Part shown: piece after piece, positions 4,463 to 31,337 of the stretch | Numbering within the stretch: position 1 is the first letter of the stretch | Layout: each line of letters begins with the position of its first letter | Virus record (IMG/VR): IMGVR_UViG_3300017740_000034 | Location: 1 to 33,054 of that record | Strand: one strand, 5' to 3' | Source of the DNA: a virus | DNA length: 33,054 nt | Notes under the pieces: generated by a model | What the model was told of the DNA's origin: nothing | Database searches by the model: none | Seen by the model: the letters and a program-made list of their open reading frames with translations, nothing else | Translations under genes and position numbers: made by a program

Positions 4463-4821
4463 TGTTCACAGTCGAAGAAACTCAAGAAATGACCGTTTTA
4501 AACGCTTTAATGTCAGAAGGTTCTATTGTTTTTTCAGACATATATAAGTATATGTTTGAACATTATGAACCCCCTGAAGCGTTAGATATTAGAGAAGCAA
4601 TTAGAAAACTATGTAATAGTTTAAAAAAGCAGTTTAATAAACTGGGTATTAGGTTGTTTGAACAAACTGTAATGGGTCATCGTTATACTATTACTGAAGA
4701 AGCAAGGCAGTTTTGTATGGAGAACTTATATGAAGTATTATTCGATGAATATGGAGAAACAGTAGGGGCGTTCTTTCAACACCCTTTGTCATTATCAGAA
4801 GAAAGGAAGGAATTAATATGA
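4462..4821 (+). CDS. Hypothetical, possibly winged-helix
   Basis: 119 aa. An N-terminal helical part (LNALMSEGSIVFSDIYKYMF) and a middle segment resembling a helix plus wing (IREAIRKLCNSLKKQFNK, then GHRYTITEEARQF) suggest a winged helix DNA-binding fold. This is a pattern impression only. The end is acidic. GGAGG lies shortly before the ATG. Confidence 0.65.
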   Translation: MFTVEETQEMTVLNALMSEGSIVFSDIYKYMFEHYEPPEALDIREAIRKLCNSLKKQFNKLGIRLFEQTVMGHRYTITEEARQFCMENLYEVLFDEYGETVGAFFQHPLSLSEERKELI

Positions 4822-5078
4822 GTAAAGTAAATGTAGAATTTAGAATAATAGATGCTGAAGATATGCCACCTTTGGTTATATCTCAGAATGAAATAGAAGA
4901 ACCTAAAGTAGTAATTAATACTTATCATAAATTATGGATAAGTTTAAATAGACAAACTATCGCTGGTATTATAGAGGCACTCCAAGAAAAGATGGATATG
5001 ATTCTAACAAGTTATTTAGAAGAACAATATGCTTTTGAACAACAGGATAGAGTTGACCTTAAAAAGATGGGTGAATAA
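4818..5078 (+). CDS. Small hypothetical protein
   Basis: 86 aa. A beta-rich N-terminal half is followed by a helical, acidic C-terminal half. The start overlaps the preceding stop (ATGA) behind GAAAGGAAGG. It lacks cysteine pairs, unlike several neighbours. Not recognised. Confidence 0.65.
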   Translation: MSKVNVEFRIIDAEDMPPLVISQNEIEEPKVVINTYHKLWISLNRQTIAGIIEALQEKMDMILTSYLEEQYAFEQQDRVDLKKMGE

Positions 5079-6548: not shown

Positions 6549-6755
6549 ATGATTAAATTACGGATTATAAATGATAGCGGACATACAGATTTAGTGCTTG
6601 AAGCAACAGGTATTATAGAACAGATAGATACACACCCGACCCATTGGGCCTTTATTAACGGCGAAATGGTAGCAAGGGAAGAGATTACTAACATCAATTG
6701 GGATGAAGTTACGAAAGTGGACTTAATGCCAGCAATTGTTGGAGGAAACTATTGA
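6549..6755 (+). CDS. ThiS/MoaD-like ubiquitin-fold (beta-grasp) protein with GG-NY tail
   Basis: 68 aa. The C-terminal half reads like ThiS/MoaD: FINGEMVAREEI at 35-46 (compare the family pattern VNGE.V.R), DEVTKVDLMPAIVGG at 52-66 (compare GDEV...P.V.GG). The chain ends two residues after the di-glycine (NY). Active ThiS, MoaD and Urm1 proteins end at GG, so a protease would have to remove NY before an E1 enzyme could adenylate it. A JAMM protease and an E1-like enzyme are encoded at 14394 and 12395. The gene stands alone between a TATA-like box and a strong terminator. Alternatives are a sulfur carrier or a lambda gpI-like tail factor. Confidence 0.7.
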   Translation: MIKLRIINDSGHTDLVLEATGIIEQIDTHPTHWAFINGEMVAREEITNINWDEVTKVDLMPAIVGGNY

Positions 6756-6784
6756 TTGAACATTAATAGTTTCTATACTCTTTT

Positions 6785-6828
6785 GGGGGAGTTGGCAAGT
6801 TTAATTACTTGCTGGCTTCCCCTTTTTT
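6785..6828 (+). terminator. 16-bp hairpin with T6 after the Ubl gene
   Basis: Bases 6785-6800 pair with 6807-6822 without a mismatch. Four of the 16 pairs are G-U wobbles, and the loop is TTAATT. Six T follow at 6823-6828. The wobbles are pairs only in RNA copied in the + direction; the other strand would have A-C mismatches, so it fits a + strand transcript. It ends the Ubl unit, and the next gene starts four bases after the T-run. Confidence 0.8.
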
Positions 6829-6832
6829 GGGT

Positions 6833-7219
6833 ATGAAGCCCGATTTACTTAATTTTATTCACGAAAACGCCCTTCAAATAATGTTAGATTTGAAAGGATG
6901 GACATATTCTAAAAATGCAGTTTTATTGAACGGTATAGCCGTTGTGAAACCGGATTTTTATGCTAACAATCATATCCTTGCGACAGGTCGTAAGGGTTAC
7001 ATTTATGCGTGTGGCGAGACTCGCATAGATTACGCAGGGAAAGAGTATTCTTCAACAGAAGATTTGCTCTCTGAATGCGGTACTGAAGCCTTAGATGACT
7101 TCAGTAATTGGAAGTTTCTAATTGAAAAAGAATGGGTAGTTACTGATGGTAGTGACCATTTCCTCATTTCTTTTTCTACTTTAGATAAACTTCCTAAAAG
7201 AACAACTTTTAGGTGTTAA
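6833..7219 (+). CDS. Hypothetical protein before NrdJ
   Basis: 128 aa from the ATG at 6833. A TTG at 6809 would extend it but lies in the terminator stem, so the shorter start is preferred. No ribosome-binding site is apparent, which suggests a leaderless transcript or read-through. Mixed alpha/beta composition with a conserved-looking middle (GRKGYIYACGETRIDYAGKE). It ends three bases before the NrdJ start. No family is recognised. Confidence 0.65.
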   Translation: MKPDLLNFIHENALQIMLDLKGWTYSKNAVLLNGIAVVKPDFYANNHILATGRKGYIYACGETRIDYAGKEYSSTEDLLSECGTEALDDFSNWKFLIEKEWVVTDGSDHFLISFSTLDKLPKRTTFRC

Positions 7220-7221
7220 AC

Positions 7222-9084
7222 ATGACAAGCCCCAATATTAAAATATTATCAGATATTACTGTGCATATGAAATATGCAAAGTATAAGCCAGAATTAGAAA
7301 GAAGAGAAACATGGGAGGAAATAGTTGAGCGTAATATGAATATGCACATTAAAACCTATCCTCAATTAGAAGCCGATATTAGAAATGTTTACGAGTATTT
7401 CGTAAAGACTAAACAAATATTGCCATCTATGCGTTCAATGCAATTTGGTGGCAAGCCAGTTGAAATTAGCCCTAATAGAGTATATAATTGTGCATATATG
7501 CCAATAGATTCCCATATAGCATTTAGTGAGGCTATGTTTCTATTACTAGGTGGAACAGGAGTGGGTTATTCTGTTCAAAGACACCATGTTGAATTGATGA
7601 AAGAGATTCATCAACCTAATGCAAATCGTCAGCGAAGATATTTAATTGCTGATTCAATAGAAGGTTGGGCTGATTCCATTAAAGTATTAATGGAGTGTTA
7701 CACAGGTATTAGAACCTCTACTCCTATATTTGATTATTCAGATATTAGACCTAAAGGAAGTTTATTAAAAACTTCTGGGGGAAAAGCACCCGGAAGTCAA
7801 CCATTAAGAGAATGTTTAGTTAAAGTAGAAGGTATTTTACAAAATATTCCTAATGGAACTAAATTAAGTCCTATTCAAGCACACGATATAATGTGCCATA
7901 TTGCAGATGCAGTATTAAGTGGCGGTATTCGGAGAGCCGCTATGATTAGTTTATTCTCCGCAGATGATATGGAAATGATTTCATCTAAGTCTGGTAAATG
8001 GTGGGAAAATAACCCGCAAAGAGGAAGGTCAAATAATTCAGCAGTTCTATTAAGACATAGAGTAACTAAAGAGTTCTTTATGGATTTATGGGAACGAATT
8101 AAAGCAAGTGGTAGCGGAGAACCCGGAATTTATTTTAATAATGATAAAGATTGGGGAACCAATCCATGTTGTGAAATAGCATTAAGGCCATATCAGTTCT
8201 GTAATTTAACAGAAGTTAATGCTTCTGATGTTAAAGACCAAGCCGATTTAGAATCGAGAGTTTCAGCAGCAGCCTTTTTAGGAACATTACAAGCAGGATA
8301 TACTGATTTCCATTATTTAAGAGAAGTATGGAGAAAGAACACTGAGAAAGATGCTCTATTAGGAGTGTCTATGACTGGTATTGCTTCAAATGTTGTTGAG
8401 CATTTAGATTTAGAAATGGCTGCTTTTGAAGTAAAGAAAGAAAACGAAAGGGTTGCTAAGTTAATTGGTATTAATCCGGCTTCAAGAACTACTTGTGTTA
8501 AACCTGCTGGAACCACTTCATTAGTATTGGGTACTTCTAGTGGTATTCATGCTTGGCATAACGATTATTACATTCGCAGATTAAGAGTAGGTAAGAATGA
8601 AGCAATCTATTCTTATCTATTAAATAATCATCCTGAATTAGTAGAAGATGAATTCTTTAATCCATTAGAACAGGCAGTTATTAGTATTCCACAGAAAGCA
8701 CCTAATGACTCTATTACTCGTCATGAGTCAGTATTTGACTTATTAGAAAGAGTAAAGAACTTTAGCATTCGTTGGGTAAGAGCAGGACATAAAGACGGGT
8801 TGAACACCCATAATGTTTCAGCCACAATTTCTATTAAAGAAGGAGAATGGGAGAAAGTTTCAGAATGGATGTGGTTAAATAGACATTATTATAATGGTCT
8901 GTCTGTATTGCCTTACGATGGGGGAACATATCAACAAGCCCCATTTGAGGATTGTAATATGAATACCTATACACAACTAAGTCAATCATTAACTACAATT
9001 GATTTAACTAAAGTTGTTGAAACTCAAGACAATACTGACCTATCGGGCGAAATAGCCTGTGCTGGCGGGTTGTGTGAAATTTAG
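7222..9084 (+). CDS. nrdJ: Adenosylcobalamin-dependent ribonucleotide reductase, class II
   Basis: 620 aa. It reduces ribonucleotides to deoxyribonucleotides with a B12 radical. The family cysteines are all present: C90 (VYNCAYMPID) and C327 (FCNLTEVN) as the active-site redox pair, C316 (NPCCEIAL) as thiyl-radical residue with E318, and the C-terminal relay pair C613/C618 (CAGGLC). GGTGVGYSVQ (110-119) and GGIRRAA (234-240) are also typical. It is shorter than the about 740 aa of the Lactobacillus enzyme. The start follows AGGTG at 7211. With MazG downstream it serves the dNTP pool. B12 must come from the host or environment. Confidence 0.95.
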   Translation: MTSPNIKILSDITVHMKYAKYKPELERRETWEEIVERNMNMHIKTYPQLEADIRNVYEYFVKTKQILPSMRSMQFGGKPVEISPNRVYNCAYMPIDSHIAFSEAMFLLLGGTGVGYSVQRHHVELMKEIHQPNANRQRRYLIADSIEGWADSIKVLMECYTGIRTSTPIFDYSDIRPKGSLLKTSGGKAPGSQPLRECLVKVEGILQNIPNGTKLSPIQAHDIMCHIADAVLSGGIRRAAMISLFSADDMEMISSKSGKWWENNPQRGRSNNSAVLLRHRVTKEFFMDLWERIKASGSGEPGIYFNNDKDWGTNPCCEIALRPYQFCNLTEVNASDVKDQADLESRVSAAAFLGTLQAGYTDFHYLREVWRKNTEKDALLGVSMTGIASNVVEHLDLEMAAFEVKKENERVAKLIGINPASRTTCVKPAGTTSLVLGTSSGIHAWHNDYYIRRLRVGKNEAIYSYLLNNHPELVEDEFFNPLEQAVISIPQKAPNDSITRHESVFDLLERVKNFSIRWVRAGHKDGLNTHNVSATISIKEGEWEKVSEWMWLNRHYYNGLSVLPYDGGTYQQAPFEDCNMNTYTQLSQSLTTIDLTKVVETQDNTDLSGEIACAGGLCEI

Positions 9085-9092
9085 GTGAGAGT

Positions 9093-9467
9093 ATGAGTAA
9101 ACTCTTCAAGAATTACGAAGAGTGTGAATCAGTAATAATAATAATGAGTGAGGACTTATCAGATAAGTCTTTAAAGAATATAGTATTAGCAATGAATGTC
9201 TCGGCATCTCTATTAGATGACAAAGATAAAATATATAGATTAACACAAACATACAGAAGCGCATTATGGGATATTCCCGAAGCAATAAGTCAAGGGTTTC
9301 ATAAATATTTAAGAATTAATGCTGAAGAAACAAAGAAAATGTTATCATATCATAAAAAACATTGTCCTAAAGATACAACTTGTAAAGTCTGTTCAAATAA
9401 AAATAAAATGTTAATTAGAATGAGGAATGTCAATGAAAGAAAAGAACCCCAAATATATAATAAATAA
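9093..9467 (+). CDS. Hypothetical helical protein with C-terminal zinc site
   Basis: 124 aa. The first 85 residues look helical. The end carries HKKHCPKDTTCKVCSN, a compact His/Cys cluster that could hold zinc. It follows NrdJ by eight bases with GGTGAGAGT before ATG. Its end overlaps the next small gene by 35 bases. No family is recognised. Confidence 0.65.
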   Translation: MSKLFKNYEECESVIIIMSEDLSDKSLKNIVLAMNVSASLLDDKDKIYRLTQTYRSALWDIPEAISQGFHKYLRINAEETKKMLSYHKKHCPKDTTCKVCSNKNKMLIRMRNVNERKEPQIYNK

Positions 9468-9594
9468 GCGAAAAAATAGCAAAATAGCCACAAGGTGTAG
9501 GGTCTGTGGTAAGCAACTTATGGTTGCTGAAGAGATAAAAAACGAGATTCATGAATCTTGTGATAATGATAATAAGAATGTATATGTGATGTGA
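9433..9594 (+). CDS. Basic mini zinc-finger protein
   Basis: 53 aa. A very basic N-terminus (about residues 2-18) is followed by CRVCGKQL and a later Cys (ESC), a likely zinc knuckle. The start has TGAGGA upstream and overlaps the preceding gene by 35 bases. It ends four bases before the next ATG. Charge and ribbon suggest nucleic acid binding. Confidence 0.55.
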   Translation: MKEKNPKYIINKRKNSKIATRCRVCGKQLMVAEEIKNEIHESCDNDNKNVYVM

Positions 9595-9598
9595 GATT

Positions 9599-10777
9599 AT
9601 GGGAAGATTAAGTATTAGAAAACCGGATGATTCAGGAGACTATTATAAAACCGTTATTGAATGTGAGACTTTTGATTTCGCTACTGATTCAGTAATGTCG
9701 GATAGAAGCCACAAAGACCCTCTTCAAGCAGCATTAACTTCTTGGTGGAAGAATAAAATTCAATATAATAAAAGAACTAGGTATAACCGAAGAAAAGTAA
9801 GTTTTGATAAAACCTTTAGTCATTTAGTTAGAATAAATGGTTGTCCTGTTCTTCTTAGTAGAGAGGGAGTTAGGTATTCGATTAATGGTAAATCCTATAA
9901 TCTGATAGGTATATCAGAAGCATTAGCAAGATTAACTTTTAAATCTTGTTTTGAGGATGACCCTGCTGTATTATTATCTACTCTGTATTCTACTCTGCAA
10001 CTGCCAGAAAATGTTAAGTATTGTCTAGAAAATAGACTACCTTATCATTGGTATGATATTCATAGAGAAGGAGTAAATAAAATAGAAGTAAGGCTAAACT
10101 GCAAACAAATAAGTGATAGTGAAATAGCCATAGAAATTAGTGATGGGGTTTGGGGAACTATGACTCTTAAACAATTAGATGTATTTTGTAATTTTTACAA
10201 GAACGGTATGGAGAGAGGAAGTTGGAAGAATACTTCTCCGATGGAGTTATTTTACAAAACAGTTGGTAGAATGCCGAAACCTTCTGAAATGGAAGTAATG
10301 AAAGCATTTCTGCAACAAAACAGAACACAGGACTTAGTTGAGTCTAGGGCTATTGATTTGGTTAATGAAATGCTGGAAGAATATTCTGATAGACTGAAAG
10401 GGGTCTGGGAGAATGATAAATTAATAGAATTATATGTTAGAGGAAAGGATTATGATTGGAAACTAACTAATAATGGTTATAAAACGGATATTCAAATGGT
10501 TTCAACATATGTTTGGCAAACTATTACTGACAGGAAAAAAACCAATGAGCATGATGAAAACGGTAATGTTATTTACGAAGAACAAGAATCCGAACCCGAT
10601 TGGCAAGGGCCGATTTGTATAGATAATATGGCTGGTGGTTCTTCATTAGGCGACCAATTTGCTGCTAGGGCATTAGCACTACTAAATGATAGATTCACAA
10701 TAACAATAGTAAATACCATTAAAAGGTATTTAAATGCAAAACCAAATACTAATAGAGTTGATATGAATGCTATGTGA
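9599..10777 (+). CDS. Large hypothetical protein upstream of TFB
   Basis: 392 aa, soluble, without an enzyme motif I can name. Noticeable patches are a basic N-terminal region (RTRYNRRKVSF near 60), a Trp/Lys-rich middle (ERGSWKNTSPMELFYKT) and a C-terminal stretch GPICIDNMAGGSSLGDQF, which could be a conserved loop. It overlaps the TFB gene by 11 bases, so the two are probably made together. No family is assigned; a profile search would decide. Confidence 0.75.
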   Translation: MGRLSIRKPDDSGDYYKTVIECETFDFATDSVMSDRSHKDPLQAALTSWWKNKIQYNKRTRYNRRKVSFDKTFSHLVRINGCPVLLSREGVRYSINGKSYNLIGISEALARLTFKSCFEDDPAVLLSTLYSTLQLPENVKYCLENRLPYHWYDIHREGVNKIEVRLNCKQISDSEIAIEISDGVWGTMTLKQLDVFCNFYKNGMERGSWKNTSPMELFYKTVGRMPKPSEMEVMKAFLQQNRTQDLVESRAIDLVNEMLEEYSDRLKGVWENDKLIELYVRGKDYDWKLTNNGYKTDIQMVSTYVWQTITDRKKTNEHDENGNVIYEEQESEPDWQGPICIDNMAGGSSLGDQFAARALALLNDRFTITIVNTIKRYLNAKPNTNRVDMNAM

Positions 10778-11606
10778 CGAATGCGGAAGTAATGAAACAG
10801 AATTTAATGAAAGGTTAGGGGAAACCTGCTGTGTTGAGTGTGGGTTAGTTATTCAAACGGAGATGTTTGAAGAAACGACGCATATATTAAACTCGCAGGG
10901 TGAATTAGTCCATTCATCTGATAGAAGAGGACTAGGTTCTGTTATAACTGGTAAAGGTGCATTTAAATATAATGCTCATGGGAAGGCTTCGGTTCTTCCT
11001 AAAAAAATATTAGAAGGCCTTATACATTGTAATATGGTTCTAACTAATGTAGCACCTCAAATGGGTCTAAGAGATAGAGTAGAAGAAATATATATTCGCT
11101 TTATGAATAAAAACCTCTTTGGTAAAACTACTTATGAGGCAAGAGCAACTGCCACTGTTTATTACGCTTTACTAGAGAACGGTACAGAGTATTCTATTAA
11201 GGAAGTAAGTGAAGAATTTCCTGATTCTCTCAAGTCTGCTAGAAAGTTAGTTAAGAAAATAAAAACAGCAGTAGGAGTAAGTAACTTACCTTACAACCCT
11301 AATTTTAGATTAAACAGAACCGCTAAACTAATAACAAATGATTTAGTATTTATCGCAGAAGCGGAAGCGGCTTTAGTATTCTTTGAAACTAAAATAGCCA
11401 ATAGTGATTACACTAAAAGCCCTGCGTACTATACAGCAATATGCTGGATAACTGCTAAAAGAATGGTTCATCCAACTATACTAAGAAAAACAATAGCAGA
11501 AAAAACAAAAACAAATGTTAAGACTATCTATGTAGAAACTAGAAAACTATTAGCATTAATAGGATATAATAATATAAACGAAATAAAAGGAAAAAGAATA
11601 TGGTGA
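10767..11606 (+). CDS. tfb: Transcription factor B (TFIIB-like)
   Basis: 279 aa. The N-terminal zinc ribbon has C3, C6, C22 and C25, including TCCVECGLVIQ as in archaeal TFB and eukaryotic TFIIB. The following segment (DRRGLGSVI) fits the B-finger/linker region. Two helical repeats of about 90 residues fit the cyclin folds, with ARATATVYYALLENG as the usual repeat helix. TFB recruits RNA polymerase to TBP-bound promoters. A viral copy could redirect host polymerase to viral promoters such as TTTATATA at 6504. It is slightly shorter than cellular TFB (about 300-310 aa). Confidence 0.88.
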   Translation: MLCDECGSNETEFNERLGETCCVECGLVIQTEMFEETTHILNSQGELVHSSDRRGLGSVITGKGAFKYNAHGKASVLPKKILEGLIHCNMVLTNVAPQMGLRDRVEEIYIRFMNKNLFGKTTYEARATATVYYALLENGTEYSIKEVSEEFPDSLKSARKLVKKIKTAVGVSNLPYNPNFRLNRTAKLITNDLVFIAEAEAALVFFETKIANSDYTKSPAYYTAICWITAKRMVHPTILRKTIAEKTKTNVKTIYVETRKLLALIGYNNINEIKGKRIW

Positions 11607-11611
11607 TTTAA

Positions 11612-11836
11612 ATGGTAGGAATAAATAATATGGAAAGTAAGAAAGAAAACTGTACCCAATGTGGTAAAAGACAAGGAGTAACTAATTGCGATAAGTGTCA
11701 TAAAAATACTTGTAGTGATTGTTTAACTATTATGCCCGTTGCTGAAAGCATTTCAACAACGATGATTAAGGTTTTACATACTAAGTGTGCGCCAGCAAAA
11801 CATCTTGCTAAATTAAATGGAAGTGAAGCAGAATGA
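11612..11836 (+). CDS. Small zinc-finger protein (B-box/LIM-like spacing)
   Basis: 74 aa. CTQCGKRQGVTNCDKCHKNT continues to CSDC and a later HTKC, giving cysteine and histidine ligands for two zinc ions in a cross-brace-like arrangement. This resembles B-box or RING-like adaptors, but the similarity is only in spacing. ATG at 11612 follows GGTGATTTAA. A second ATG at 11630 is also plausible. It lies between TFB and MazG, about 560 bases before the E1-like gene. Confidence 0.65.
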   Translation: MVGINNMESKKENCTQCGKRQGVTNCDKCHKNTCSDCLTIMPVAESISTTMIKVLHTKCAPAKHLAKLNGSEAE

Positions 11837-12159
11837 GTTTTGAAAAACAATGGGATAAAGTAGCGAAGCAAATTTACAAGAATGCAGTTGAACATGGTTT
11901 TTGGAAAGGAGAAGTAAATGATGGAGAAAGAATGGCTCTTATTCATGCAGAGATTAGTGAAGCATTAGAAGCATTAAGAGAAGGAAACCCCTCATCAAAT
12001 AAGATAATGGAGTTTTCTAATCTAGAAGAAGAATTAGCAGATGCAGTAATTCGTATAATGGATTATGCGTTTGGTAAGGATTTAGATGTAGCAGGTGCGA
12101 TTCTCGCTAAGATTGAATATAACAAAGACCGTGAGTTTATGCATGGTAAAACATTTTAG
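11833..12159 (+). CDS. MazG-like nucleotide pyrophosphohydrolase
   Basis: 108 aa, the length of a single-domain all-alpha NTP pyrophosphatase. The metal site pattern ExxE...ExxD is present: E40/E43 in HAEISEALEALR and E67/D70 in EEELADAVIRIMD. Such enzymes hydrolyse (d)NTPs to monophosphates and pyrophosphate, clearing non-canonical nucleotides or adjusting pools. They are common in phages with NrdJ. ATGA overlap with the preceding gene. Confidence 0.88.
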   Translation: MSFEKQWDKVAKQIYKNAVEHGFWKGEVNDGERMALIHAEISEALEALREGNPSSNKIMEFSNLEEELADAVIRIMDYAFGKDLDVAGAILAKIEYNKDREFMHGKTF

Positions 12160-12170
12160 GAGTGAGTAGA

Positions 12171-12398
12171 ATGAACAGTACAAGAGTATTAAGCAATAGG
12201 CTTTTAGATATGGCCTTCGTGGAAAGAGGCAAACAATATAATCATATCGTGCAAACAACAAAACAATTACACCAATTGGCAATAGATGCGGAATCAACCG
12301 ATGTCTTAAATGTAAATGATTGGGTGCTTATGCAGTTTCTAATGATGCATATGGCAATGGATGAAGGAAAATTAGTAATGAAAGAGGAATTACAATGA
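12171..12398 (+). CDS. Small helical protein, unknown
   Basis: 75 aa from the ATG behind TAGGAGTGAG. An upstream in-frame GTG at 12162 lies in the ribosome-binding site and is rejected. Entirely helical in appearance, with a Met-rich C-terminal helix (VLMQFLMMHMAMDEG). It overlaps the E1-like gene by four bases and is probably coupled to it. The function is unknown. Confidence 0.65.
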   Translation: MNSTRVLSNRLLDMAFVERGKQYNHIVQTTKQLHQLAIDAESTDVLNVNDWVLMQFLMMHMAMDEGKLVMKEELQ

Positions 12399-12952
12399 GA
12401 AAAATATTAATTATAGGAACAGGCGGAATTGGGTCATTTTTGGTTCAGTTTTTAGATAAGGTAAAGTTATATGATATTCATGTGGCTGACCCTGATATTG
12501 TAGAAGACAAGAATCTACCTTATCAAAACTTTAGATTAGGTCATGTTGGTCAAAATAAGGCTAGTGTTATGATGGATTCTTATTCTTCTGTTAATTCTTT
12601 TAGTAAATACCCTGTTTTAACTGAAAAACAAATGAAAGGTTATGATTTGGTAATTTGCTGTGTAGATAACTTAGGAGTAAGAAGAACCTTATACAACACA
12701 AGTATTAAATGGCTTGACTTACGAGCGCAAGGCAGGAATGCCGCACTTGTGAGCCATAAGGCCGACCCTAAAATGTATGATATGCTTTTAGCAGGGCCGG
12801 ATGGTTCATTTAGTTGTCAAGGAGATTCATGGGATGGGACAAATAAGAATGTTCAAATGATGCAAATAGCAATTGCAGGATTAGGCGCACAATGGATTCA
12901 AAGATGGTTCAATAATGAAGAAGTGAAAGAATATATGGTGATAAATATATGA
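12395..12952 (+). CDS. E1-like (ThiF/MoeB/HesA) adenylyltransferase
   Basis: 185 aa, a single Rossmann domain of the E1 superfamily. GTGGIGS (8-14) binds ATP. DPDIVEDKNLPYQNF (32-46) matches the family pattern D.D.VE..NL.RQ, with Tyr for Arg. GQNKA (52-56) supplies the conserved Lys. CCVDNLGVRR (88-97) carries the Asp-Asn pair. DLRAQGRN and SCQGDS (140-145) resemble phage ThiF proteins; C141 may be the thioester or a metal Cys. E1 enzymes adenylate the C-terminal glycine of a Ubl, for which the protein at 6549 is the candidate. It is shorter than MoeB (about 250 aa). Activity is not shown by sequence. Confidence 0.8.
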   Translation: MRKILIIGTGGIGSFLVQFLDKVKLYDIHVADPDIVEDKNLPYQNFRLGHVGQNKASVMMDSYSSVNSFSKYPVLTEKQMKGYDLVICCVDNLGVRRTLYNTSIKWLDLRAQGRNAALVSHKADPKMYDMLLAGPDGSFSCQGDSWDGTNKNVQMMQIAIAGLGAQWIQRWFNNEEVKEYMVINI

Positions 12953-13122
12953 AGTGCATACATGACAATTATATTATTACAGCAGAAGATATTTCTGGCT
13001 ATCAAGAATGTGCCTGTCCTATATTATCAATCATGGTTATATGTGAAGATTGTGGAATTACAGGTCGCTTCACAAGAAATACTTGTGAATGTGAAGAAGA
13101 AATAGAATGGGAGGTTTCGTAA
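12949..13122 (+). CDS. Cysteine-rich mini protein
   Basis: 57 aa with seven cysteines (C3, CAC at 21-23, CEDC at 32-35, CEC at 46-48), probably zinc-bound. ATGA overlap with the E1-like gene indicates coupled translation. The acidic end EEEIEWEVS contains the next gene's GGGAGGT site. It could be an adaptor of the E1 or simply one of the many zinc micro-proteins here. Confidence 0.6.
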   Translation: MKCIHDNYIITAEDISGYQECACPILSIMVICEDCGITGRFTRNTCECEEEIEWEVS

Positions 13123-13334
13123 TGGAATTTACAGAAGATAATATCGGAGATATTATAGAATATAATGATGATAAAGGCTCTTATTTTGAAGAGAGAGTCG
13201 TTCTCGCTTATTGTCAGGTTTGTGGGGCTAGATTTATTGGCCCTATTAGAGAAGCAGGTGGTTTTCTAGGTGGCCACGAAGTATTTCACACTTGGGAATT
13301 TAAGATGGAAATGAATCAAGATTTGGAGGCATAA
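13122..13334 (+). CDS. Small zinc-finger-like protein
   Basis: 70 aa from ATG at 13122, eight bases after GGGAGG. An earlier in-frame ATG at 13107 overlaps that site and is less likely. YCQVCGARFIGPIREAGG with two later His (GGHEVFHTW) resembles a C2H2-type knuckle. An acidic N-terminus precedes it. It lies between the E1-like gene and the basic HTH protein. The function is unknown. Confidence 0.65.
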   Translation: MEFTEDNIGDIIEYNDDKGSYFEERVVLAYCQVCGARFIGPIREAGGFLGGHEVFHTWEFKMEMNQDLEA

Positions 13335-13336
13335 AT

Positions 13337-14392
13337 ATGAATAAAAAATGGACAAAGGAAATGGAAGCATATATAATAGTTAAACGAAGTATGAAAGTAC
13401 CTTACAAGAAGTTGCTTATTTCTTTTAATAACAAGTTTATGGCAGATGCAAGTCTTTCTGACTTACATCAAAAAGCATTTAAATTAGGAGTAACCAAACC
13501 AACAGCACCAAAACCGTACAGAAAGAAAAAGACTTTACCTGTTAAAAGCCCTGTTGTTGTGAAGAAAACTAAGAAAGTAGTGACAGGTAAATACTCTAAA
13601 AAGGAGATAGAGATTTTGTTGAATTGTAAATCTGTTGAAGAAGCAAAAAACTCTGGCTTAAATAGAAAGGAGAGTTCATTGGTTCAAAAGTATTATTCTT
13701 TGAAAAGAAAAACTACTAAGAAAACAACCAAAAAGAAAAGCACCGTAACTAAAAAGAAATTGAATAGTGATAGTAGCATACTATTTACAGAAAAAGGATT
13801 AGATTGGAGAGATGAGCCAGCCACACGAAGGCAATTAAAGTATTTATTGTCTCTTACTAATGCTGATTTGGGATACCAAGAAAGAAAGGATATGGTAAAA
13901 GTTTTATTTGGTAAAACAACTAAGAAAGAAGCCTGTGATGGCATAGAAGCAGCACTCGCTGCTCTTGATAAGCAAGAACTAAATCCTTTAGATAAAGCAG
14001 AAGAGATTGAAGAATATCTAAAACCTCAACAATCAGTTTCTTATGTAGCAGAAACTATGTGGACTAAAGAAGAGGATTTTGATATTCTTTGTAACTTTTA
14101 TGAGTATTCTATTGACGAAGCAAGAAATCATTTTAATACACCTTATTCAGTTATCGCAAGTCGTTTAGAAAGCCTTGTTGATAGCACAGAACCCGAACAT
14201 ATTGAATTACTTATGGAGGCTTCTAAGGTAATTAAAGCAAGAAAGGCACTGGCGGCTAGAGAGGCTAAGACTGGCTTTTGGAAGCGTAGAAAACTGCGAA
14301 AACAGGCTAAGAAAGCGGCTAAGAAACAAGCAAAGTTGGATAGAGAAATCGCTAAGGTTGAAAAGAAATTAAATAAACTGAAAGGTGAATAA
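13337..14392 (+). CDS. Lys-rich DNA-binding protein with SANT/Myb-like modules
   Basis: 351 aa, strongly basic. Three stretches begin with an aromatic/Lys pattern typical of SANT/Myb helices: KKWTKEMEAYIIVKRSM (3-19), KYSKKEIEILLNC (about 85-97) and MWTKEEDFDILCNFYEYS (about 235-252). Between them are Thr/Lys-rich linkers (TTKKTTKKKS) and a TRRQLKYLLSL module shared with the protein at 5081. The end is an Ala/Lys-rich helix (RKQAKKAAKKQAKLDREI). This mix suggests a chromatin or nucleoid protein, or a regulator binding repeated sites. It directly precedes the JAMM gene. Confidence 0.7.
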   Translation: MNKKWTKEMEAYIIVKRSMKVPYKKLLISFNNKFMADASLSDLHQKAFKLGVTKPTAPKPYRKKKTLPVKSPVVVKKTKKVVTGKYSKKEIEILLNCKSVEEAKNSGLNRKESSLVQKYYSLKRKTTKKTTKKKSTVTKKKLNSDSSILFTEKGLDWRDEPATRRQLKYLLSLTNADLGYQERKDMVKVLFGKTTKKEACDGIEAALAALDKQELNPLDKAEEIEEYLKPQQSVSYVAETMWTKEEDFDILCNFYEYSIDEARNHFNTPYSVIASRLESLVDSTEPEHIELLMEASKVIKARKALAAREAKTGFWKRRKLRKQAKKAAKKQAKLDREIAKVEKKLNKLKGE

Positions 14393-14393
14393 A

Positions 14394-14939
14394 ATGGGAA
14401 GACTGAAAGACCACTATTTTGATGAGATTAATAATGATGATGATGGATATGATAAGTATGTTTCTGAATTGGAAATAGCAAGAGCAGAAGCAGAACAACA
14501 TATTGATGCGTATTATGAGCAAGGTATGGAGATAAAAGAATTGTTTGAGCATATATGGTATGCTTCAACTGAAATACTACCTAAACTTGAAGTGCAAGTA
14601 GTTATTGATGGTAAAGATGCTATTCATATTTCAACGGGTTCAGCAAGTTATGTCGGTGCAGATTGGGAAACAGGATTTAATTTACCAAAAAAGGTAACAA
14701 TTCCGATTAAGTGTTGGATTCATACACACCCATTTGGTCGTGCTTATTTCAGTGGTACTGATATTAGAACAGTAACTCGTTGGGGAACATATGTGGACAA
14801 TATGAAAGAAGCCTATGTATTAGGCGGCGAAGGCCACTATGGTTATTGGAGTCAAGAAACTCCTAACGAATTACAGATTTATACTGATAATAAATATGAA
14901 GAAACCCAAGTATGGCATAGAGGGAGAGAGGAAGAATGA
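14394..14939 (+). CDS. JAMM/JAB-family metalloprotease
   Basis: 181 aa. The zinc motif HxHPx7SxxD is complete: H110, H112, P113, S120, D123 in WIHTHPFGRAYFSGTDIRT. The usual upstream Glu cannot be placed with confidence. JAB enzymes cleave after the Gly-Gly of ubiquitin-like proteins. In phages they also occur in tail assembly and in defence or counter-defence loci. A protein 8 kb upstream ends GG-NY, an apt substrate. The long N-terminal part (1-60) is acidic and helical. The start follows GGTGA; a GTG at 14385 overlaps that site and is rejected. Deubiquitinase-like action is inferred. Confidence 0.82.
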   Translation: MGRLKDHYFDEINNDDDGYDKYVSELEIARAEAEQHIDAYYEQGMEIKELFEHIWYASTEILPKLEVQVVIDGKDAIHISTGSASYVGADWETGFNLPKKVTIPIKCWIHTHPFGRAYFSGTDIRTVTRWGTYVDNMKEAYVLGGEGHYGYWSQETPNELQIYTDNKYEETQVWHRGREEE

Positions 14940-27900: not shown

Positions 27901-29568
27901 ATGATAATAAATAAGATGAAAGACGGCAAAACCATATATAAGTCTTGGAGAGAAAATGGAGAAAGACGATTTGATATGGTAGAATTTAAACCGTATTTTT
28001 TTGTTGAGGCCGATGTCTTAGAACCAAGAACATATTCTCCTTCTAAGTATCTAACTAGAGATTTTGAGTATGTTACTGGTGATTCAATTAACATTAATAA
28101 AGTACCTCTAAAGAAAGTATATGTAGAAAATTCTTATGATATTAAAGAAGCAAGAAAGTTGTTTTCTAAAACCTATGAAGCAGATGTTCCACTACATTTT
28201 AGATATTGTGTAGATGAAATAGAGGAAATGCCCGAATACAATATGCGTAAGTGGTATTGGGATATGGAATGGCAACAAGGCGGAGAACATCATGATAAGA
28301 TTACTACTATTGTAATGTATGATAATTATGATAAAAACTACTTTCAGTGGGTTTGGTTTCCTGATGAAACGCCTATTGATGATAATGTTTTTGATTCAGC
28401 AAAGTGGAGTAATACTATTATTTTTTCTAACGAAAAAGACATGATTGAAAACTTTATGACAACTATGGTTGTAAAAGACCCCGATATGTTAATTGCTTGG
28501 TTTGGTAATTTTGCTGATGTTCCTAAATTACTTAACAGGGCTTGTATTCTTGGATTAAACCCTTGTGTAATGTCTCCAATCGGTTCAATTAAAGGGGTAA
28601 AGAAGGTGAAGGAAGGCTATTCTTTTGCTTATGCTGAAAAAGGATTCACTCCGATAGAACAGCCCATAGGTGGCCGCATAACCCTTAGTTTAGAAGTAGC
28701 CTTTGAGCGACAATGGAATGATTCTCAAAGGGGTACGCTACCATCTTTAAGTCTTGATTATATCGGTAATATGGTTCTTAATAAAAAGAAACTGGTTTCA
28801 GAAAAGTTTCCTGATACAAATGAATTTTATAGAAAGGCATGGTTAGAAGATACAGAGACTTATTTATCTTATGCTATTAAAGATGTAGAGTTGATTGTTG
28901 AACTAGATGAAACAAATTATTGTAGCGAAGCAATACTTTCATTACAAAGATTACTAAAAGCACCATTCGATGCTTGTTTCTATGCTAGTCATATGGGTTC
29001 TATTTACTTTATGCGTAATGCTTGGTGGAAAGCACCAACAGGTAAAAAGGTTGAGAATAGACAAGAGTATGAAGGAGCCATGATTTATGACCCATTAAGT
29101 GAAGGAACAAACGGATTACATCTTAATGTAGCCGCTTTTGATTTCGCTGGTCTATATCCTAGTATGATGATTTCACGCAATATATCGTTTGAAACTAAGT
29201 CAGAAGAACCAACTGCATTTGGAGTCAATATCTTAACTCCAAGAGATTTCAGCGAAGTTAAGCATGTTAAGATGTTATATTATAAAACAGATGAACTTGG
29301 TTTATTGCCAAAAGCGGTACTTGAATTGAAGGAGTTGCGGAATGAATATAAGCGTCTTATGCGAGAGGCAAGAGAATCAGACAATGGAGAATATGCTAAG
29401 TGGTATAATAATCAAATGGCAGTAAAAAGATTAATGGCCTCATTTTACGGAATTGTTGCCTTTCAAGGCTTTGGATGGGCTGATGTTGATTTAGCCGCAA
29501 GTATAACAGCAAGTGCTAGAGAAGCAATTAGATTAGCGGCATTCAAAGCAAAGGAGATGGAAGTATGA
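27901..29568 (+). CDS. polB: Family B DNA polymerase, N-terminal piece (exonuclease, palm, fingers)
   Basis: 555 aa. Exonuclease sites: Exo I D121/E123 (WYWDMEW), Exo II around NFADVPKL (203-210) and Exo III Y324/D328 (YAIKD). Polymerase motif A is FDFAGLYPS (413-421) and motif B KRLMASFYG (509-517), with Ala where Asn is usual. The chain stops shortly after the fingers, before motif C, which is encoded 0.9 kb downstream in a separate gene (30444). The break is thus at a domain-compatible site. No intein motif is visible at the end (KEMEV). Two chains must assemble for activity. Confidence 0.93.
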   Translation: MIINKMKDGKTIYKSWRENGERRFDMVEFKPYFFVEADVLEPRTYSPSKYLTRDFEYVTGDSININKVPLKKVYVENSYDIKEARKLFSKTYEADVPLHFRYCVDEIEEMPEYNMRKWYWDMEWQQGGEHHDKITTIVMYDNYDKNYFQWVWFPDETPIDDNVFDSAKWSNTIIFSNEKDMIENFMTTMVVKDPDMLIAWFGNFADVPKLLNRACILGLNPCVMSPIGSIKGVKKVKEGYSFAYAEKGFTPIEQPIGGRITLSLEVAFERQWNDSQRGTLPSLSLDYIGNMVLNKKKLVSEKFPDTNEFYRKAWLEDTETYLSYAIKDVELIVELDETNYCSEAILSLQRLLKAPFDACFYASHMGSIYFMRNAWWKAPTGKKVENRQEYEGAMIYDPLSEGTNGLHLNVAAFDFAGLYPSMMISRNISFETKSEEPTAFGVNILTPRDFSEVKHVKMLYYKTDELGLLPKAVLELKELRNEYKRLMREARESDNGEYAKWYNNQMAVKRLMASFYGIVAFQGFGWADVDLAASITASAREAIRLAAFKAKEMEV

Positions 29569-29699
29569 GATGTTTACAATGTAAAGAAGGAACACTTAAA
29601 TTAGTAAAATACGAAGTAAAGAAGAAAGCATCGTATTATCCCGCAGTTAAGAAAGGTTTATTAGAATGTGATAAATGCGGTTATAGGGAGGTATTATAA
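29565..29699 (+). CDS. Mini zinc ribbon inside the polB split
   Basis: 44 aa. CLQC (3-6) and CDKC (35-38) around a Lys-rich middle. ATGA overlap with the polymerase piece shows coupled translation, with AAGGAGATGG as ribosome site. It could be an accessory subunit bridging the polymerase halves, or an unrelated insertion. Confidence 0.65.
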   Translation: MRCLQCKEGTLKLVKYEVKKKASYYPAVKKGLLECDKCGYREVL

Positions 29700-29872
29700 T
29701 GACAATGACAAAATATGTAACAGTAAAAGTATCATACGATACAGAAGAAACTTGGAATACTACTTTACAAGAAATAAAAGAACTATTTCAAATGATGAAT
29801 AACTTAAAGCGTAATGCTATTATTCTTGATATTGAACAAGGTGTTAATAATGATGATGGACAAGACGAATGA
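29699..29872 (+). CDS. Small hypothetical protein inside the polB split
   Basis: 57 aa. The ATG overlaps the preceding TAA by one base, behind AGGGAGGT. A beta strand (KYVTVKVSYD), a helix (TTLQEIKELFQMMNN) and a strand (AIILDIE) suggest a small folded domain with an acidic tail. Unknown. Confidence 0.6.
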   Translation: MTMTKYVTVKVSYDTEETWNTTLQEIKELFQMMNNLKRNAIILDIEQGVNNDDGQDE

Positions 29873-29981
29873 GTTATTAGAAGAATTGCTGGCTATGATA
29901 GCAAGAAGTAACAAGATATTAATGATGGTAAATATCGTAAACATAGCAACCATTATAACAATAGTGACGGTGATAATATGA
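29856..29981 (+). CDS. Membrane micro-protein inside the polB split
   Basis: 41 aa. An acidic/helical start (MDKTNELLEELLAMI) and a hydrophobic end (MMVNIVNIATIITIVTVII) make a tail-anchored membrane peptide. It overlaps the preceding gene by 17 bases and the next by four (ATGA). AAGGTG lies upstream. An odd passenger between polymerase halves. Confidence 0.5.
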   Translation: MDKTNELLEELLAMIARSNKILMMVNIVNIATIITIVTVII

Positions 29982-30247
29982 ATCAATACGAAATAGATAA
30001 ATTAAATAAAGCAGTTGAAAGACTAACAATGGAAAACGAAGCATTAGTGGATAGAATTAACCGGCTAGTAGGTCATCAAGAAGATATTTTAGGGCGAATA
30101 TGGAAATTAGAATCCGAGTTGGTTAATGAATCCGATGTAAAAGATACTCTTAAAATCAATGAGATTGACTCTTGGACTATTAACCATCAGACTATATCTG
30201 ATAAGATAGAAAAAAGAATACTCGCTAAATTGAAGGGATTAGAATGA
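29978..30247 (+). CDS. Coiled-coil protein inside the polB split
   Basis: 89 aa, a heptad-rich helix through the first 50 residues (LNKAVERLTMENEALVDRIN), then a shorter charged helix. GGTGATAAT precedes the ATG. Coupled to both neighbours by four-base overlaps. Function unknown; it may dimerise. Confidence 0.65.
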   Translation: MNQYEIDKLNKAVERLTMENEALVDRINRLVGHQEDILGRIWKLESELVNESDVKDTLKINEIDSWTINHQTISDKIEKRILAKLKGLE

Positions 30248-30447
30248 CTGGTATTGCAGATAAAATAGCAGAAGCGATAATTAAGGATAAGAAAGCATTT
30301 AATAGCATTAAAAAATCTATGTCTTGGAGATTATCCGATATTTTGATAGAAGGGCAAATAAATCTGAGAGATGAAATTAGGGCTATTATAATACAGGAAT
30401 TACCTAATGCTTTTGATATGTGGCTGGCTTCGGGGGAGGAAGAATGA
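30244..30447 (+). CDS. Small helical protein inside the polB split
   Basis: 67 aa, helical, with acidic end (WLASGEEE). Its last codons encode the strong GGGGGAGGA site of the second polymerase gene, and the stop overlaps that ATG. This makes translation of the PolB C-terminal piece dependent on it. Unknown. Confidence 0.6.
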   Translation: MTGIADKIAEAIIKDKKAFNSIKKSMSWRLSDILIEGQINLRDEIRAIIIQELPNAFDMWLASGEEE

Positions 30448-31337
30448 AAGTAGTTTATGGACATACTGATTCAATCTATGTTCAAATAGATTCAGTTGAA
30501 ACTGCTGAAATTGCTATTAAAGAAATAGAAGCATCTGTTAGAGAACACTTCCCTAATGTTATGGGATTAAAAGAACACCCTGTCCAATTAGAATTTGAAA
30601 AGTATTTTTCAGCATTAGGTGTAGGAACCACTAAGAATAGAAATGCTGGTTTAGTATCTTGGGAGGATGGAGTTTGGTTAGATAAGCCAAAATTCACTAT
30701 GACTGGTTTTACTGCTAAAAGAGTGAGTGAAACAAAACTCGCTAAAGCAATACAGATAAAAGCCCTCAATATGTGGGTTGAAAACAAATCAGAAGCAGAA
30801 CTTACTAAGTATCTACATAAAACATATATCTCCGTAATAAACGGAGAAATAGAAGTTAATGATATTATCAAAAGAAGCAGGTTAAGACCTAACAGATTTA
30901 TGGTAAAGTGCCCTGAATGTCGTATGAAATATCATCTTAGGGATTGTATAGAGTTAAAGCATTCAGTATGTAAAAAATGCTCAACAGAAACTAAGCAGTT
31001 TAGGACTCTTGAAGAAAAGAAGCCCTCAATAGGTTCCGGTATAGCCGGAGTATTATATGCTTGGGAGAAAAAAGACTCTATTTTTGATGACTCTTATGTT
31101 TTCTTAAAAGTTAAAGGGGTTAATGACTATTATACTCATCCCCTTACAAGAGAAAGGAAGCCAGTTGATTATGTGTCTGGTACTGAATTAAAAGATTTTG
31201 CTAATTATTCTCCTGATTGGCAACATTATGCGAACCAAGTTATTGATAAAGCCAAGCCGATATACAAGGCTATGGGTTGGGATATATCAAGTATTCGCAC
31301 AGGGAGATTACAAACAAGTTTGGAGGAATGGTTTTGA
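30444..31337 (+). CDS. polB: Family B DNA polymerase, C-terminal piece (motif C, thumb, PIP box)
   Basis: 297 aa, starting at motif C: YGHTDS (5-10). The usual YGDTDS has His for the first Asp; the second Asp (D9), the metal ligand in RB69 polymerase, is kept. TTKNRNAGL (62-70) corresponds to the KKRYAG motif with Asn for Tyr. A four-cysteine insertion (CPEC 156-159, CKKC 176-179) may bind zinc. The end QTSLEEWF (290-297) is a PIP box for the clamp. ATG follows GGGGGAGGA; a longer frame from 30420 is rejected. It must pair with the 27901 product. Confidence 0.92.
   Translation: MKVVYGHTDSIYVQIDSVETAEIAIKEIEASVREHFPNVMGLKEHPVQLEFEKYFSALGVGTTKNRNAGLVSWEDGVWLDKPKFTMTGFTAKRVSETKLAKAIQIKALNMWVENKSEAELTKYLHKTYISVINGEIEVNDIIKRSRLRPNRFMVKCPECRMKYHLRDCIELKHSVCKKCSTETKQFRTLEEKKPSIGSGIAGVLYAWEKKDSIFDDSYVFLKVKGVNDYYTHPLTRERKPVDYVSGTELKDFANYSPDWQHYANQVIDKAKPIYKAMGWDISSIRTGRLQTSLEEWF

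Follow-up and report, generated by a model that had tools for sequence, protein, structure and literature searches.

The window analysed in this study is the IMG/VR viral record IMGVR_UViG_3300017740_000034 in its full length of 33,054 bases, with all genes on one strand. Four of these genes, coding for a ubiquitin-like protein (Ubl), an E2-like protein, an E1-like adenylyltransferase, and a JAMM metalloprotease, probably constitute a self-contained Ubl conjugation pathway encoded by magroviruses. This pathway is related to a Ubl system with poly-Ubl precursors in the archaeal order Poseidoniales, yet forms a deep branch separate from it. The genes of the window include those for a superfamily 1 helicase, a class II ribonucleotide reductase, the transcription factor TFB, a GroES-like open reading frame (ORF), and GroEL. 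Further genes encode an ATP-dependent DNA ligase, the RFC small subunit, PCNA, and a split PolB. Magroviruses are tailed viruses of Poseidoniales (PMC10768690; PMC5332604). Because its gene set agrees with their description in the same publications, the window is, judged by gene content, a magrovirus-like fragment, i.e. derived from archaeal Caudoviricetes of Poseidoniales.

Features of the four viral proteins

6549-6755, + strand: Ubl, predicted beta-grasp modifier of 68 amino acids with the C-terminus AIVGG-NY (AlphaFold2 fold, PDB structural matches, invariant GG, 35/35 genomes)
9599-10777, + strand: E2-like protein of 392 amino acids with a UBC-like domain at about residues 243-390 (nucleotides 10325-10768) and an invariant Cys340 in GPICIDN, codon 10616-10618 (AlphaFold2, VIA-align, invariant Cys, 35/35 genomes, hhalign to Poseidoniales proteins)
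12395-12952, + strand: E1, single-domain ThiF/MoeB-like adenylyltransferase of 185 amino acids with an invariant Cys141 in SCQ, codon 12815-12817 (Pfam ThiF, PDB matches, conserved residues, 35/35 genomes)
14394-14939, + strand, alternative in-frame GTG start at 14385: JAMM/MPN+ metalloprotease of 181 amino acids (catalytic set, PDB matches, 35/35 genomes)

The Ubl gene is preceded by a ribosome-binding site. A first-pass annotation of the window had described a ThiS/MoaD-like protein of 68 residues ending in GG-NY at position 6549, and both coordinates and residues were found as described. It had named the beta-grasp fold beforehand as a refutation test. This fold was obtained in the AlphaFold2 model, which was computed from a 55-sequence alignment (mean pLDDT 86.6) and has the order strand-strand-helix-strand-strand-(short helix)-strand followed by an unstructured GG tail. 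The best PDB alignments of the model include MoaD, ThiS, TtuB, SUMO, and a bacterial Ubl, and nearly every row is ubiquitin-like. The alignment scores are modest (highest Z 5.6; 63 of the 68 residues aligned), and a Foldseek search of the model against the PDB gave no match at E < 0.001. All 55 non-redundant relatives keep the motif A62-x-V64-G65-G66 including the Gly-Gly, loss of which in relatives would have spoken against a modifier. The number of residues beyond the GG is variable (0 in 12, 1 in 8, and 2 in 35 of the 55 sequences). Searches against Pfam, PHROGs, NCBIfam, and PADLOC yielded nothing significant, the Ubl profile had no match among PDB sequences, and of the 55 members only two were matched by ThiS (best E 0.004). 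The PinA inhibitor matched 28 members (best E 5e-4), which we attribute to chance because fold and GG agree with a Ubl.

At position 12395 a single-domain E1-like adenylyltransferase had been annotated, and the protein does consist of one domain that matches Pfam ThiF above the cut-off (E 5e-15). Among its PDB matches are UBA5, Cap2, NEDD8 E1, and MoeB; in profile scans ThiF models were closest. The residues of the ATP site are invariant: GxGGIG (G8-G13), DxD (D32/D34), N40, Q44, K55, and D91-N92-xxx-R96. Cys141 and the main ATP-site residues are kept in 61 aligned viral members as well as in a 105-row alignment, and the SCQ cysteine is also found in all aligned archaeal E1 relatives with the exception of one very distant DPANN protein. 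By eye, Cys141 shares its C-terminal context with C184 of ThiF and C187 of MoeB, the hhalign alignment to MoeB reaching only residue ~100. Compared with the NCBIfam equivalog for UbaA, the E1 that activates small archaeal modifier proteins (SAMPs), the viral protein scored 26.7 bits at a cut-off of 450. Single-domain E1 relatives with the SCQ motif also occur in genomes of Methanoperedens/Methanosarcinales (L264, L266, L274).

The JAMM protease at 14394 has the intact residues H110, H112, S120, and D123 noted in the first-pass annotation and E66 besides. With numbering from 14394, all five zinc-site residues are invariant in 74 of 74 aligned sequences, and the motif reads H110-T-H112...S120..D123. 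The match to Prok-JAB (E 6e-4) is below the cut-off of Pfam. The best PDB matches are AMSH-LP, AMSH, Sst2, and Rpn11-like proteins, the AMSH-like profile giving E 9e-4.

The statement of the first-pass annotation that no E2 could be identified needs to be corrected. For the protein encoded at 9599-10777, AlphaFold2 gave a model with high per-residue confidence (pLDDT 90; pTM 0.59), and in VIA-align the 50 best PDB matches are all E2s or E2 complexes, among them Ube2K, UBE2S, Ubc13, Rad6, and UbcH5. All these alignments fall on model residues ~243-390, with a root mean square deviation of ~4. Cys340 is the only invariant one of seven cysteines (56/56) and is embedded in the motif W-x-G-P-I-C-I/V-D-N. 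The viral GPICIDN resembles the E2 signature G-x-I-C-L-D, and the cysteine is situated between the last strand and a helix in the model, as it is in E2s. No confident match of the protein was found in Pfam, NCBIfam, PADLOC, or PDB profiles, and a Foldseek search against BFVD gave only three confident matches, all of them viral proteins without names. Since the virus apparently encodes its own E2-like protein, the title of the first-pass annotation, a possible complete Ubl system, is better supported than could be known at that time.

Conservation in magroviruses and counterparts in Poseidoniales

Close viral relatives of the window virus are numerous, and the near-complete ones are contigs of 80-97 kb. 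Presence at the genome level was counted in profile searches of 35 magrovirus contigs of at least 80 kb, most of which had originally been recovered via the Ubl, E1, and JAMM genes themselves. Each of the four genes was found in 35 of 35 contigs, and the three genes of the first-pass annotation thus stay together in related genomes. Contigs of this size that were recovered via the independent markers RFC and PolB all carry the Ubl/E1/JAMM set, so the complete count is not a mere effect of ascertainment. Ubl, E1, and JAMM are single-copy in each contig except for two genes split in pieces. In genome G013 the E1 gene is cut by contig ends, and in G010 two neighboring JAMM pieces probably result from a frame break.

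Gene order was evaluated in 134 syntenic loci spanning the region, some of which overlap on one contig. The order Ubl-E2-like-E1-JAMM on one strand is fixed in these loci. Among all window ORFs tested, only Ubl, E1, JAMM, and 9599-10777 were present in 134 of 134 loci, the first three by selection. The four genes are located in the replication/early half of the genome, surrounded by the genes for helicase, ribonucleotide reductase, TFB, GroEL, ligase, and PCNA. This position is relevant to a role in virion or tail maturation, as was proposed for the lambda proteins I (Ubl) and K (JAB-NlpC). Ubl and JAB genes do occur in tail clusters of caudate phages (Iyer 2006, PMC1779556), but the magrovirus genes are not grouped with tail genes, the JAMM lacks an NlpC domain, and E1 and E2-like protein accompany it. 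We consider such a role very improbable.

A scan of genomes with the E1 profile revealed Poseidoniales contigs with adjacent E1 and JAMM genes, several of which also encode a GG-ended Ubl and a protein with an ICID motif. Neighbors of these loci are genes for enolase, class II ribonucleotide reductase, an aminotransferase, and glycosyltransferases, which indicates that the host Ubl loci are chromosomal. Host and viral E1 are homologous from end to end (hhalign 100%, E 5e-44), and the host ICID proteins match the C-terminal domain of the viral E2-like protein (hhalign 96.1%, E 3e-9). From the 194 genomes of the order, 87 contain Ubl, 94 contain JAMM, and 81 contain both. For this co-occurrence, Fisher's test gave p 7e-33, uncorrected for phylogeny or genome completeness. 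By sequence homology, about half of the Poseidoniales genomes sampled appear to carry a homologous system.

Many of the host Ubls consist of 2-4 copies in tandem, and every copy has a terminal GG. Such poly-Ubl proteins are encoded at L381:5042-6292(-), L382:5169-6419(+), L386:5482-6171, and L387:5320-6177. Ubl(-Ubl)-E1 fusions were found in Poseidoniales contigs L381, L382, and L388, and E1-JAMM fusions in genomes of the order at L384:5619-6929, L385:857-2104(-), L391:5696-6901, and L392:3623-4858. Adjacency of the genes, together with the Ubl-Ubl-E1 and E1-JAMM fusions, ties the parts into one functional unit in the hosts. One could argue that the viral genes are unrelated to each other and co-occur because the replication module as a whole is conserved, as they are interspersed with other genes. 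The adjacent operons and fusions of the hosts as well as the joint occurrence of Ubl and JAMM in the host-order genomes speak against this explanation, which we regard as hardly credible.

Two further host-order loci are worth describing. An 8-kb stretch on a contig of a Thalassarchaeum metagenome-assembled genome (MAG; L276:271-8203) contains genes for E1, TFB, and an AAA ATPase along with two Ubl genes and three genes for E2-like proteins with ICID or ICIH motifs. The other locus, L389:5776-8256 (G145:C56, Poseidoniales order), has consecutive genes for a Ubl that ends in FG and not in GG, a JAMM that falls within the viral JAMMs, an E2-like protein with an ICLD motif, and E1.

In the E1 tree, viral and host sequences part on well-supported long branches, to which the usual warning about long branches applies. 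The tree also groups two crAss-like sequences with the viral ones, on a very long branch, a position that we do not trust. In the JAMM tree, the hosts are on one side of a fully supported branch, save the G145/L389 JAMM nested in the viral clade. Because both trees separate virus and host deeply, the viral set appears to be an ancient branch and not a recent capture from a host. The position of the G145/L389 JAMM makes exchange from virus to host probable on at least one occasion.

The existence of related host loci also raises the possibility that the viral proteins chiefly sabotage a host Ubl pathway by a competing Ubl, poisoning of E1, or stripping by JAMM, e.g. as counter-defence. The frequency of the homologous system among sampled Poseidoniales and the virus-like JAMM of G145/L389 are in line with such interference. 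However, an inhibitor would not need the full forward pathway that the virus has kept, including E1 and an E2-like protein with invariant cysteines, and viral E1 and JAMM form deep separate branches. Moreover, the viral set is universal, though many host-order genomes, often incomplete ones, yielded no relative. We therefore hold interference as the chief function to be unlikely.

Several other genes accompany the viral set:

9427-9594, + strand: putative zinc protein of small size with CxxC...HxxxC, its gene immediately preceding that of the E2-like protein (in 125/134 syntenic loci)
10767-11606, + strand: TFB-like transcription factor with a zinc ribbon and a cyclin-like sequence, encoded between the genes for E2-like protein and E1 (132/134 loci)

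The zinc protein is a possible accessory factor; the host E2-like proteins have an N-terminal CxxC...CxxC finger within the same chain. The TFB-like gene is a neighbor and at most an unproven candidate member of the system. Poor conservation across other magroviruses led us to drop three ORFs as parts of the system, namely the one at 12162 and two small zinc ORFs (11612 and 12949). An 86-residue protein of unassigned function (window 4818-5078) was present in 128 of 134 syntenic loci and is a strong candidate for a core gene. PolB is split in two genes (window 27901-31337) with several small ORFs in between; a PolB-NTD and a PolB-CTD are likewise shown for an aoguangvirus in the profile of the International Committee on Taxonomy of Viruses. 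At window positions ~150-190, immediately ahead of the first gene, a terminator-like GC-rich hairpin (GGGGGGTTCGCCCCCC) is followed by T-rich sequence. Contig L258 encodes a magrovirus E1, E2-like protein, and JAMM; its label as a Maricaulis MAG probably reflects mis-binning of a virus contig.

Proposed conjugation pathway and points against it

In the proposed pathway, JAMM would trim the tail of 0-2 residues from the Ubl and thereby expose the Gly-Gly, whose terminal glycine would be adenylated by E1. Cys141 of E1 probably holds the Ubl, which would then be handed to Cys340 of the E2-like protein and attached to amino groups of targets. JAMM may also be able to strip the Ubl from these targets. 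Because the genes sit in the replication/early module, host regulatory or viral replication proteins are likely targets, and hand-over of modified proteins to the host proteasome is possible. A transcription factor such as TFB would be a reasonable, though speculative, first target, since TFB adjoins the system genes in most viral loci and in L276, and since TBP2 of Haloferax bears isopeptide bonds of the ubiquitin-like kind (PMC4895103).

The E1-activated and JAMM-trimmed Ubl may instead be a thiocarboxylate carrier of the ThiS/MoaD type, as in QbsCDE/PDTC, that feeds viral or host thiolation. The structural matches of the Ubl to MoaD, ThiS, and TtuB and the proximity of the viral E1 to ThiF models agree with this function, and sulfur operons combining Ubl, E1, and JAB are known (Iyer 2006, PMC1779556). 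On the other hand, an E2-like protein with an invariant cysteine is conserved, and the host relatives are often tandem poly-Ubls, which are typical of modifiers and not of carriers. Neither rhodanese (PF00581) nor Ncs6/TtuA-type ATP_bind_3 (PF01171) was detected in 29 near-complete magroviruses in a search limited to these two families, in which nearly all control genomes matched. A sulfur carrier thus seems doubtful. Forward conjugation is favored because the main residues for trimming, activation, carrying, and release are conserved, the E2-like protein is always present, and the two families were not found.

A number of observations weigh against the conjugation pathway. The E1 does not have the usual arginine of the NLxRQ motif; this residue is Tyr43 in all viral E1s and His in the host relatives, and other invariant arginines (R96, R110, R114) could compensate for it. 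The VIA-align scores of the E2-like protein are just Z 4.2-5.6 (<8) on a predicted model, and Foldseek gave no confident match of this model to the PDB. No HPN motif is found ahead of Cys340, and the comparison of the domain with a eukaryotic UBC profile by hhalign was not significant (1.5%), this profile being an approximate one of five sequences. Because of the missing motif and the failed profile comparison the protein is named E2-like, and we regard it as a good candidate based on its model, not as a member of the UBC family. Furthermore, in 12 of the 55 viral Ubls the GG already forms the very C-terminus and leaves no tail to trim, but JAMM is retained in these viruses as well. Trimming therefore cannot be the sole job of this enzyme, which, to judge from these sequences, probably also deconjugates. 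Finally, neither an E3 nor a target is known, and the host could provide a sulfur acceptor.

The more far-reaching view is that an order of abundant marine archaeal viruses universally encodes a complete ubiquitination-like cascade of its own, comprising Ubl, E1, a new family of E2-like proteins, and a deconjugase of the JAMM type, in parallel with the as yet undescribed poly-Ubl system of the hosts, and tags host or viral proteins during infection. For this view the arguments appear evenly balanced to us.

Comparison with known systems

The published accounts of magroviruses and Poseidoniales viruses covered here do not mention the system. In the literature on magroviruses, Poseidoniales, and crAss-like phages in combination with ubiquitin no such system was reported, an earlier mention in Philosof 2017 or Prabhu 2025 being possible. 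A virus order with a full set of Ubl, E1, E2, and JAMM among its core genes appears to be undescribed, as does the poly-Ubl system of Poseidoniales. Prokaryotic Ubl conjugation has hitherto been studied chiefly for its roles in the cell or in defence. In the magroviruses, apparently every enzymatic part is among the core genes, and their hosts belong to the most abundant archaea of the surface ocean. The cascade may provide these viruses with a means to mark or remodel proteins during infection. Viral and host systems together would bear on the evolution of E1-E2-Ubl-JAMM cascades outside the Asgard/Caldiarchaeum line, and the four viral proteins are directly amenable to in vitro tests.

The bacterial Bil (BilABCD) and type II CBASS (Cap2 E1-E2, Cap3 JAB) systems combine a Ubl or C-terminal target with E1, E2, and JAB. 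PADLOC E1-E2 profiles match the viral E1. In contrast to these systems, E1 and E2-like protein are separate in the virus, and the carrier is a virus and not a defended cell. The viral Ubl, JAMM, and 9599 protein had no match in PADLOC, and neither cGAS nor defence genes were found as neighbors in the replication-module context.

Sulfur-carrier sets (ThiS-ThiF, MoaD-MoeB, QbsCDE/PDTC) have a beta-grasp GG protein, a ThiF-like E1, and a JAB in common with the virus, which differs by its E2-like protein and by the result of the search for rhodanese and ATP_bind_3 in the 29 near-complete viruses. The tail proteins I and K of lambda and T1 likewise are a phage Ubl and a JAB (Iyer 2006, PMC1779556), but there is no E1 or E2, the genes are located with those of the tail, and the JAB is fused to NlpC.

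Sampylation in Haloferax relies on a MoaD-like SAMP, one E1 (UbaA), and the JAMM deconjugase HvJAMM1 (PMC4443979). The virus differs in having its own E2-like protein and an E1 far below the UbaA cut-off. No E2 is known from the SAMP system.

In crAss-like phages (crAss001 gp76 ThiF and gp77 Prok-JAB; DAC15), an E1-like protein and a JAB are also adjacent phage genes in the replication half. Their E1 is ~29% identical over a part, the crAss proteins are larger, and no relative of the magrovirus Ubl is recognisable. By eye, the flanking gp78 and gp79 of crAss001 are possibly E2-like and Ubl-like (L339 covers gp76-gp79; DAC15 is L338).

Also similar in its parts is the chromosomal system of Poseidoniales, which has a homologous E1, Ubl, JAMM, and C-terminal domain of the E2-like protein, and likewise the SCQ cysteine and a GG-ended Ubl. 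There, however, the Ubl often occurs as a tandem of 2-4 copies or as a fusion with E1, and E1 is sometimes fused to JAMM. A zinc finger is part of the E2-like protein, and the genes are often contiguous, whereas they are dispersed in the virus.

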